DNA of 64,000 nucleotides from Fimbriimonadaceae bacterium (GTDB taxonomy: Bacteria > Armatimonadota > Fimbriimonadia > Fimbriimonadales > Fimbriimonadaceae), in the NCBI GenBank assembly GCA_022843485.1, contig JALHNM010000004.1, positions 62,001-126,000 of the forward strand. Direction: 5' to 3'. Below, one piece after another: positions 30,394 to 32,784 of this stretch. Position 1 is the first letter of the stretch. Each line of letters opens with the position of its first letter. The notes beneath the pieces were generated by a model, which saw nothing but the letters and a program-made list of their open reading frames with translations, was not told the DNA's origin and searched no databases. Both the position numbers and the translations under genes were made by a program.

Positions 30394-30741
30394 CTAGAAG
30401 GTGAGCACGCGGTCGCTGGCGAGGGCCAGGGCCGCGAGTTCGGGCATCGTCCCAAGAGCCACACCCTCGACCAAGGGTGCGGAGTGGTAGCCTCGGGTCT
30501 CTAGGCACAACCCACAGACCTTCACCTGGGCGCCCGCGTCGATCAACCCCCTCAGGCGGGAACCCAGGTTCTTGTCGGGCTCGGCCGAGGACGCGTCGAT
30601 CGCCGCCCCCGTTCCGTCCGCCATCAGGAACACCGTGACCTCCGCCCCGGCCTCGACGAAGGCCAGGCTCAGCCGCAGCGCATGGTAAGCGACGTCGCTC
30701 CCGTAGGGCGACGCGGTGACGACGACAAGCACGAGGGGCAT
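30394..30741 (-). CDS. DsrE family protein
   Basis: A 115-residue Rossmann-like protein of the DsrE/DsrF-like family, whose members relay sulfur or act in oxidoreduction near thiol chemistry. The N-terminal LVLVVVTASPYGSDVAYHALRLSLAFVEAGAEVTVFLMADG strand-helix-strand is typical. A single candidate pair of cysteines is in KVCGLCLETRG. It starts six bases after a TAGACT element, so the mRNA is probably leaderless. It sits just downstream of the interrupted thioredoxin-like gene on the same strand, 23 bases away. Confidence 0.8.
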   Translation of the reverse strand: MPLVLVVVTASPYGSDVAYHALRLSLAFVEAGAEVTVFLMADGTGAAIDASSAEPDKNLGSRLRGLIDAGAQVKVCGLCLETRGYHSAPLVEGVALGTMPELAALALASDRVLTF

Positions 30742-30764: not shown

Positions 30765-31925
30765 CTAAGACCTGCTTAGGCTCAAGGTCACGCCCATCGG
30801 GGCGGGCCCGAAGTCGTTCTCCCGCTGGTTGAACTGCGCCTTGCCCGACCGCTCGCCCAGGGCCACGATGTCGAGTTCGACGAACGCCCCCTTCGAATCG
30901 TCCCAGACCCCTTGGCCGTAGACCTTCCCCGAGAACGCCCGTCCCCCGCCCTCTGCTCGGAAGCTTCCCCGGTACTCGATCCGCCCGTCCTCGCGACGCC
31001 GCATCGTGACCCGGGCCTCGCGGACTTCCTCGTCCTTCCATTCGGGGGCTTGGCCACGAACGGTGTCGACGAACGCCTCGCGGACCACCTGTCGCCACAC
31101 CGCCGGGTCGACGGGCTCCTCCGCCCGACCGGTCGGCACAAGGCTTCGGGCCCGGTCGATCGCGACCCAGCCCTCGTTCCACGCCCATTTCGTGAAGTCG
31201 AGCCACATCCTCGACTCCGCGACCTCGTGCCGCCGGGCCCCGCTCCGATCCCCGGCCCCTCGCGGGAGGTCGCGCACATTGACCCGCAGCACCAACTCCC
31301 CCTCGACGCCCGGCGGTGGGGCCCAGGGCTTCGGCGGCACCGGCCGGTTCGCGTAACCCTTCTCCTCGCGAAGCGCGTCCCACCGCTCCAGGGCTCGCCG
31401 AAGTCGGGCGCGGACGTCCGCCGGCTCGCCCGAGGCCGCGAACCGCCCCTCAAGGTACTCGGCGTCCGGGCCGATCATGTAGATCCCCTGCTTCGTGCCC
31501 TTCCGGTTCCAGTCCCCCGCTGGCATCTGCTCGCCGAACCGCTTGAAGAACACGTGGTCCGGCCGTTGGGCCGCATCCCTCAAGTGCCCCTCCCACTCCG
31601 GGTAGAGCCGGTAGGCCTCGTCCGCCACCGTGACGAACTCCTTGCTCAAGCGCTTGATCTCAGGGTCTGACCAGACCAACTGGCGTCCGCGGACGCCGTT
31701 GTTTCACGTGCAGCCGAGCGGGTGCCCGTTCATGGTCCAGAGCAGGATCGGCCGCCCCAGCGCCCGGGCCTCCGCCATCCCCTCGCGCAGGCTCGTACGC
31801 CAGTCAATCTCCTTATAGGCCTGTTCTCGGGCGTCAGGCTGGACGAACCGCAACCACGAGCGGTAGTTCCCCGCGTCGGGCTCGGGGGAGCTGAGGGCCA
31901 AGAGGGCGACGAGACAGCTGACCAT
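30765..31925 (-). CDS. Thioredoxin-like protein with in-frame TGA, candidate selenoprotein
   Basis: Two open stretches in the same frame are separated only by a TGA at 31704-31706. The first has a signal peptide (residues 1-18) and a thioredoxin-like beginning: a helix (SLREGMAEARALGRP), a strand (ILLW) and GHPLGCT, where the TGA is codon 74. The second continues directly as NNGVRGRQLVWSDPEIKRLS and runs for about 310 residues of good coding sequence, ending in a beta-rich C-terminal domain. The TGA falls where thioredoxin-fold proteins have their redox cysteines, giving Cys-Thr-Sec if decoded. Alternatives are a nonsense mutation or a sequencing error. Start ATG at 31925 is leaderless-like. 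Confidence 0.6.
31677..31706 (-). other. TGA codon and hairpin, possible SECIS-like element
   Basis: On the minus strand TGA (31706-31704) is followed after two bases by CAAC-GGCGTCC-GC-GGACGCC-(A)-GTTG, an 11-bp stem with one bulged A and a minimal loop (31701-31677). If the innermost pair opens, the loop is CGCG, with a G in its first two bases as in bacterial SECIS loops. The TGA-to-loop distance of about 12-13 bases is slightly shorter than the usual bacterial range. High GC makes chance hairpins common. Confidence 0.4.
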
Positions 31926-31932
31926 CACGCCG

Positions 31933-31938
31933 ATTATG
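31933..31938 (-). promoter_or_regulatory. -10-like hexamer for the thioredoxin-like gene
   Basis: CATAAT ends seven bases before the ATG at 31925, without a Shine-Dalgarno sequence. The intact start signal argues that the gene is still expressed. Confidence 0.4.
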
Positions 31939-31977: not shown

Positions 31978-32784
31978 ATGACCCTCGCCCAACGCGCCCG
32001 GCAATGGAAGGGGCTGCTCGCGATCTACGTGCAGGACGGGCTGGCCTACCGCGCCGCCGGTGCGATCTGGGTCCTCACCGACGTCGCGACGGCCGTCACC
32101 ATGCCCGTCGTCTGGGCCGCCGCCAGCCGCACCGGCCCCATCGCCGGGTTCACGGCCAGCGACTTCGTCCTCTACTATCTGTGCATGCTTATGGTCTCGA
32201 GCTTCGTCACGTCCCACTTTATGTGGGAGATCAGCACCGAGATCCGAGAGGGACACTTCTCGACCCACATCATCCGGCCCGTCGGCTACCTGGAGTTCAT
32301 CCTCGTCCGCAACGTCGCCTGGCGCCTGGTAAGAAGCCTTCTCTTCCTCCCCTGGTTCGCCCTCATTCTGTGGACCTATTCGGGCTCTCTCGGCGCCGTC
32401 CAGCTCAACCTCGGGCCCGAGTTCTGGCTCTCAGTGCTCCTCGGCCACTTCGTCAGCGTCCTGTTCGTCACCGCCCTCGCTATGATCGCGCTCTTCACCC
32501 AAGAAGCCCAGGCGATCTTCGAGCTCTACTACTTCCCGATGCTCTTCCTGAGCGGGCAGCTCTTCCCGATCGCCCTCTTCCCAGACTGGGTGCGCGGCGT
32601 CGCCCTCGTCTTCCCGTTCTACTACACGACCGGCGCGCCGACCGAGATCCTCATCGGCCGGATCACCGGCCCCGCGGTCTGGCAGGCGCTCGGCGTCCAG
32701 CTCCTGTGGGTGGTCCTCTCCCTCATCGCCTACCGCCTCCTCTGGCGAGCAGGTATCCGCCGCTACACCGGCGTCGGTATGTGA
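31978..32784 (+). CDS. ABC-2 type transporter permease
   Basis: A 268-residue permease with six membrane segments matching the ABC-2 family (COG4587-like), which forms export complexes with a separate ATPase. Conserved-looking features are the amphipathic N-terminus, EISTEIREGHFSTHIIRPVGY in the first cytoplasmic loop and the FPMLFLSGQLFPIALFPDWVRG segment before the last helices. No ATPase or second permease of the usual trio is adjacent. The ATG at 31978 is chosen because the upstream frame is not hydrophobic. Confidence 0.83.
   Translation: MTLAQRARQWKGLLAIYVQDGLAYRAAGAIWVLTDVATAVTMPVVWAAASRTGPIAGFTASDFVLYYLCMLMVSSFVTSHFMWEISTEIREGHFSTHIIRPVGYLEFILVRNVAWRLVRSLLFLPWFALILWTYSGSLGAVQLNLGPEFWLSVLLGHFVSVLFVTALAMIALFTQEAQAIFELYYFPMLFLSGQLFPIALFPDWVRGVALVFPFYYTTGAPTEILIGRITGPAVWQALGVQLLWVVLSLIAYRLLWRAGIRRYTGVGM

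Follow-up and report, generated by a model that had tools for sequence, protein, structure and literature searches.

Organization of the locus

On the minus strand of the window, that is, the whole 64,000-nucleotide stretch of DNA that was analysed, lies a gene whose frame is broken once by a TGA codon (Table 1). This codon is the sole interruption between positions 31925 and 30765, and it joins the open stretch ending in ...NGHPLGCT to the one that resumes with NNGVRGRQLVWSDPEI... in one frame, without any indel. The in-frame TGA between two open stretches described in an earlier sequence-only reading is therefore confirmed at 31706-31704. Translation with TGA read as U gives MVSCLVALLALSS...RPILLWTMNGHPLGCTUNNGVRGRQLVWSDPEI..., and the homologues of the gene run at full length and in the same frame across the TGA.

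The gene starts with an ATG at 31925-31923, and a GTG at 31928 is likewise in frame. The start signal, which had been read as intact, is present as a CATAAT box (31938-31933) followed by 7 bases and the ATG. Of 67 homologues, 16 have a box that matches TATAAT at 5 of 6 positions and ends 3-9 nt ahead of the start, compared with 1.5 expected by shuffling, and in 11 homologues such a box lies exactly 6 nt from the start codon. Only one of the 48 other long ORFs of the window has a box of this kind next to its start. The position of these -10-like boxes suggests that the family may be expressed from leaderless mRNAs. The hydrophobic stretch at the N-terminus of the query protein contains no basic residue. 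Genes of the family are likely annotated in databases as two fragments or as truncated proteins.

A DsrE-like gene (30394-30741, minus strand) begins 24 bases after the stop codon, and the two genes possibly form an operon in this species. Neither the DsrE-like gene nor a divergent ABC permease is conserved beside the homologues; the only conserved neighbours are pdhA/pdhB, in the two closest species.

Table 1. Features of the locus, with positions numbered along the window
Feature	Position	Strand	Remarks
CATAAT, -10-like box	31933-31938	minus	7 nt ahead of the ATG
Predicted selenoprotein gene	30765-31925	minus	ATG at 31925, stop at 30767-30765, single in-frame TGA; open throughout with TGA = U
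Short hydrophobic N-terminus, putative signal peptide or anchor	31875-31925	minus	Sequence MVSCLVALLALSS; many homologues start similarly hydrophobic
Thioredoxin-fold domain (predicted)	31365-31820	minus	Residues 37-188 of protein P0001; AlphaFold2 and VIA structure comparison
Cys-Thr-Sec (CxU) redox motif (predicted)	31704-31712	minus	Of the 97 Sec members, 92 have Cys at -2 or -1; no non-Sec member does
Sec TGA codon (predicted)	31704-31706	minus	Residue 74 from the ATG, 75 in P0001; based on the TGA column of 97 distinct homologues and the Sec machinery in the genome
First hairpin	31677-31701	minus	10 bp with one bulged A; core pairs kept in 14-18 of 18 subfamily A sequences
Likely SECIS apical hairpin, GGUCU-GGUC-AGACC	31664-31677	minus	Loop 31 nt after the UGA; fits the bSECIS model; conserved in subfamily A; frozen synonymous sites
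C-terminal, mainly beta domain (predicted)	30768-31301	minus	Residues 210-387 of P0001; modelled alone with pLDDT 92.5

The genome encodes the Sec machinery

The assembly (2.96 Mb, 98.8% complete) carries selA (468 bits), selB (339 bits including its neighbour piece), selD (335 bits) and a tRNA-Sec (72 bits) with the anticodon tca (UCA), which are the four genes for which the sequence-only reading had suggested a search. SelD of the same genome (L019:1501-2463) is itself a selenoprotein, with an in-frame TGA in the catalytic loop (ACAGUASK), and this UGA gives independent evidence that the genome uses Sec. A profile search of the genome for the formate dehydrogenase alpha subunit (FdhA) found nothing at or over the cut-off. 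Besides the gene under study, SelD was the only selenoprotein found in this genome.

RNA hairpins downstream of the UGA

The sequence-only reading had described a stable 11-bp hairpin starting two bases after the TGA and proposed that it guides Sec insertion. The hairpin exists (31701-31677), but it comprises 10 bp with one bulged A, and its energy is unremarkable: together with the next hairpin, over 49 nt, the MFE is -17.9 kcal/mol (z -1.56), and 15 of 200 shuffled sequences are as stable. Moreover, 12 nt separate the UGA from its loop, short of the 16-37 nt required by the bSECIS model, which also specifies a loop of 3-9 nt, a stem of 4-16 bp and a G in the first two loop bases (PMC13188914). 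The long hairpin was therefore rejected as the SECIS and is kept only as an accessory element or as the lower part of the signal. The second hairpin (31677-31664) is the most likely SECIS, so that the proposal of a guiding hairpin stands, in that a structure fitting the model is present, but not for the hairpin that had been named. An Rfam search of the window returned no family.

In subfamily A, the real sequences could not be told apart from the synonymous null by the MFE of the downstream region alone, and loop-specific scores, control windows and codon freezing were therefore used. With the -7.5 kcal/mol limit of the model left out, a hairpin that fits it follows the TGA in 97 of 97 TGA genes, compared with 67% of control windows. 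A stem score of at least 13 was reached by 82% of the real sites as opposed to 17% of 3080 control windows from the same genes (paired Wilcoxon p 8e-18). The 97 TGA genes contain 65 different stem-loop sequences; the stems vary in sequence and position by subfamily, and the loops are rich in G and U throughout. Examples are GGUCU-GGUC-AGACC at +31 in the subfamily of the present gene, CCAGRC(A/G)-GUC-(U/C)GUCUGG at +23 and GGGACC-GUC-GGUUCC at +19. Within the +23 subfamily, pairs change among A-U, G-U and G-C yet stay paired.

Synonymous sites are frozen in the 13 codons that follow the TGA (+1 to +13). Among the 16 closest sequences, the invariant residues at +3 (GGC), +10 (GTC), +12 (TCA) and +13 (GAC) use a single codon each, whereas invariant Leu, Gly, Pro and Ala residues elsewhere use several. 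Mean codon identity is 0.75 over +1 to +13 and 0.49 outside (p 3e-4 by permutation with random column sets), and the top sliding window begins at +1.

Conservation of the TGA codon and its association with selA

A TGA is found at exactly the same column in 97 distinct homologues that were read codon by codon, each alignment being taken on its own strand. These sequences belong to two phyla and share about 20-72% identity, and identity falls to about 20% in an alignment of 50 rows. It is the conservation of this column, and not the energy of the hairpin, that takes the case beyond chance. Matches were found in 37 of 101 genomes (the present one and 100 relatives), and almost every strong match contains exactly one internal TGA. 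The relatives with titles are Fimbriimonadales of the Armatimonadota, and a search across the phylum adds further homologues. Locus L054, from a scan of genome contigs, is a member of the family and its genome has selA; its record title, Planctomycetota bacterium, is the basis for naming the second phylum. In that phylum, the family occurs in 103 of 392 genomes, mostly with one TGA each. Five genomes (G117, G108, G333, G070 and G571) hold at least three paralogues apiece, most with a TGA of their own.

The distribution of the TGA form follows that of selA. Across 101 genomes, selA is present in 30 of the 31 with the TGA form and in 31 of the 70 without it (Fisher p 1.2e-7, with kinship ignored); the lone TGA-form genome without selA, G078, is 73% complete. 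Another 16 Armatimonadota genomes have a TGA copy in the tabulated results, and selA was over the cut-off in 12 of them. The other four, in which selA was not over the cut-off, are G111, G112, G125 and G103, of which G111 and G112 are more than 90% complete and lie in many contigs. In all, seven genomes with a TGA homologue, G078 and these four included, lack a convincing full selA match or have a fragmented assembly. Two genomes without selA have versions of the family that lack the TGA, with Ser (G045) or Asp (G024) at the column. G035 also has a version without TGA (Ser), and G006 has selA together with an Asp version.

Residues in place of Sec

The alignment of homologues had been expected to show the TGA replaced by Cys in part of the family. 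The TGA is present in 97 sequences, but Cys versions are nearly absent: in full-length members that lack the TGA, the column is occupied by Ser, Asp or Asn, and by Cys just once, in L060, on a long branch. Trp was never found at this column among the members read. All non-Sec members lack the Cys at -1/-2, and the hairpin is gone from most of them too, although L150 and L152 may still have it. In a quick, unrooted tree of 71 rows from the Armatimonadota phylum, in which the direction of change is unset, the non-Sec state needs only two changes. To judge from these sequences, the partner Cys and Sec seem to be gained or lost together, as one unit, and it is mainly this behaviour that supports a Cys-Sec resolving pair.

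The members L150-L157 (Ser, Asp or Asn, with the neighbouring Cys lost) look redox-dead, and some of them share a genome with a Sec copy (G401, G461 and G452). Two remoter groups were also observed. One (L058, L061 and L067) consists of Cys-containing thioredoxin-like proteins of about 330 aa (MACANARTLRATLFKDPEF) that match in the N-terminal domain only and form a possible Cys outgroup. The other (L069, L114, L123 and L115), from related genomes, has the Cys-Sec pair in another context (DGRMNxGRCUGGAF, APCUVGGT) and is possibly a sister selenoprotein family.

Predicted fold and active site

The AlphaFold2 model computed from 50 sequences has a pLDDT of 93.5 and a pTM of 0.90. Residues 37-188 superimpose on thioredoxin folds with VIA Z values of 12.6 for 3f9u, 11.4 for 1sen, about 11 for AGR2/AGR3 and 9-10 for DsbD-gamma, so that DsbD-gamma, TXNDC12/ERp19 and AGR2/AGR3 are the closest solved folds (Z 9-12.6). 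The C-terminal beta domain has no match above Z 6.0 among PDB structures. Sec 75 is placed directly N-terminal to the helix formed by residues 76-85, at the position of the nucleophile in thioredoxin folds, and the profile alignment sets U opposite the first Cys of CVNC in 3f9u (a weak alignment, E 0.26, which agrees with the model). The thioredoxin fold with the TGA at its active site, as put forward from the sequence, is thus supported by a high-confidence model and by the profile alignment.

Position +3, which holds the second Cys of a CxxC motif, is Gly in 91, Ala in 5 and Val in 1 of the 97 Sec members, and Gly 148, invariant in 50 rows, aligns with the Pro before the strand (cis-Pro) of 3f9u (weak, E 0.26). 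The site is therefore UxxG rather than UxxC and is without the usual cis-Pro. By contrast, 3f9u has CVNC and a Pro at the cis-Pro position where the family has U-N-N-G and an invariant Gly. Both the second Cys and the cis-Pro of CxxC thioredoxin-type disulfide oxidoreductases are absent, and the Gly modelled at the cis-Pro position speaks against an ordinary disulfide reductase. The Sec members read CTU (74), HCU (6), CGU (3), CVU (3) or RCU (3), the rest being singles. No further conserved Cys or His ligand was noted among the invariant columns of the 50-row alignment.

Comparison with described selenoprotein families

No NCBIfam model matched the query at E up to 1, none of the family members reaches the cut-off of any model, and sequence searches of NCBIfam, Pfam and the PDB gave no assignment for the protein. 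No entry that combines this motif with this domain stands among the 119 prokaryotic selenoprotein families and subfamilies inventoried in 2026 (PMC13188914). The comparison with NCBIfam and the inventory agrees with the sequence-only reading, in which no described family could be matched, and the family, absent from the catalogue and the family library checked, is taken here as a new one of a known kind. A search of the open-access journal literature on selenoproteins of Armatimonadota, Fimbriimonas or Planctomycetota gave nothing relevant, and a GenBank annotation or a further paper may exist.

The VPGUxxT proteins (NF041382/NF041383, OS_HP5) share a thioredoxin-like N-terminal region and a single Sec with the family and are the best NCBIfam match of some members, with 26.6 bits for the Cys member L060 (NF041383, cut-off 275) and 19.7 bits for L078 (NF041382, cut-off 350). 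They differ in motif, which is [GA]CTUNNG in the family, and in the C-terminal region; a VPGUxxT protein was not found in the present genome. The Trx7/PDZ (seleno)protein NF041199 also has a Thioredoxin_7-like domain with Sec, but a single member (L060) matches it, with 18.1 bits against a cut-off of 300, and no PDZ match was found. Its motif in the inventory is CxxU, whereas the thioredoxin-like selenoprotein Sec.1 (PF13192) is listed with CxU (PMC13188914), the motif that it has in common with the family. Among 50 members searched against Pfam, none matched PF13192 or PF00837, and Thioredoxin_7 and Thioredox_DsbH matched weakly. Deiodinases carry Cys-x-Sec in a thioredoxin fold, and the arrangement in the family recalls these proteins and the deiodinase-like proteins (PF00837).

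Proposed function and alternative explanations

Taken at the level of sequence, the gene almost certainly encodes a genuine selenoprotein. The explanation as a whole, in which a selenoprotein family with SelB-guided Sec insertion provides an exported Cys-Sec protein of thioredoxin fold, is very probable. SelB would bring the Sec-tRNA(UCA) to the UGA, directed by the hairpin 16-37 nt downstream, and translation would yield an uninterrupted chain of about 386 residues, in which Cys-Thr-Sec stands where helix 1 of the thioredoxin fold begins and the beta domain follows that fold. The short hydrophobic N-terminus may export it. Outside the cytoplasm, the Sec selenolate could attack a peroxide or an oxidised thiol as the nucleophile and so reduce it. 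The Cys one or two positions N-terminal to Sec could then resolve the selenenyl intermediate, since Gly takes the place of the second Cys of CxxC. Such selenolate chemistry with resolution by Cys comes near to an even chance.

A nonsense mutation or sequencing error, which would leave a pseudogene ending at codon 74, accords with table 11, in which TGA is a stop codon that ends the frame. The sequence-only reading had kept the mutation in reserve, but a TGA column shared by 97 homologues of about 20-72% identity from two phyla excludes it; the protein is conserved at full length downstream, a constrained hairpin follows the codon, and the probability of this explanation is negligible. Barely greater is the chance that the UGA is read as another residue (Trp or Cys, by a code change or suppression) or that two products are made deliberately. 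The open frame alone would allow for this, and minor use of read-through is compatible with the sequence. However, Trp never occupies the column, where the alternatives to TGA are Ser, Asp, Asn and a single Cys, the TGA form tracks selA and the hairpins fit the SECIS model. TGA also terminates other genes here, e.g. at 32782-32784, which speaks against a code change, and a product of 74 residues would miss most of the fold.

The remaining alternatives concern the kind of selenoprotein. That it represents a divergent branch of a known family, likeliest VPGUxxT or Trx7/PDZ, is improbable: the weak NCBIfam matches over the thioredoxin part favour it, but they score ten-fold under the curated cut-offs and cover only about 60-95 residues, the query itself matches nothing, and the C-terminal domain is unmatched. 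Somewhat less unlikely is a role of Sec as a ligand for a metal, mercury or arsenic, or as a binding residue, rather than as a redox catalyst. Soft metals can be bound by Cys-Sec pairs; Gly stands at the cis-Pro position, CxxC is missing, and the non-Sec members, with Ser, Asp or Asn instead, persist although they have no redox residues. Against a ligand role, Sec is situated at the N-terminus of a helix, where the nucleophiles of thioredoxin folds are activated, and the invariant columns contain no other conserved Cys or His ligand.

Implications

According to the authors of deep-Sep, writing in 2025, all known selenoproteins seem to have Cys homologues, and homology methods that rely on Cys/Sec pairs are limited (PMC12013277). 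Methods of that type would miss the present family because its Cys versions are nearly absent. It is possible, though somewhat less likely than not, that this is a two-phylum family in which Cys does not replace Sec: a member that loses Sec would lose its partner Cys and its SECIS as well, and the Sec site would become Ser, Asp or Asn. If so, the reaction may need selenium, unlike those of selenoproteins at large.

The family is large, since about one in four of the genomes sampled from two phyla has a member, and it adds to the 119 families of the 2026 inventory (PMC13188914). Its presence gives several of these bacteria a reason to retain the Sec machinery, and the near absence of Cys versions makes it testable whether some reactions truly require selenium.
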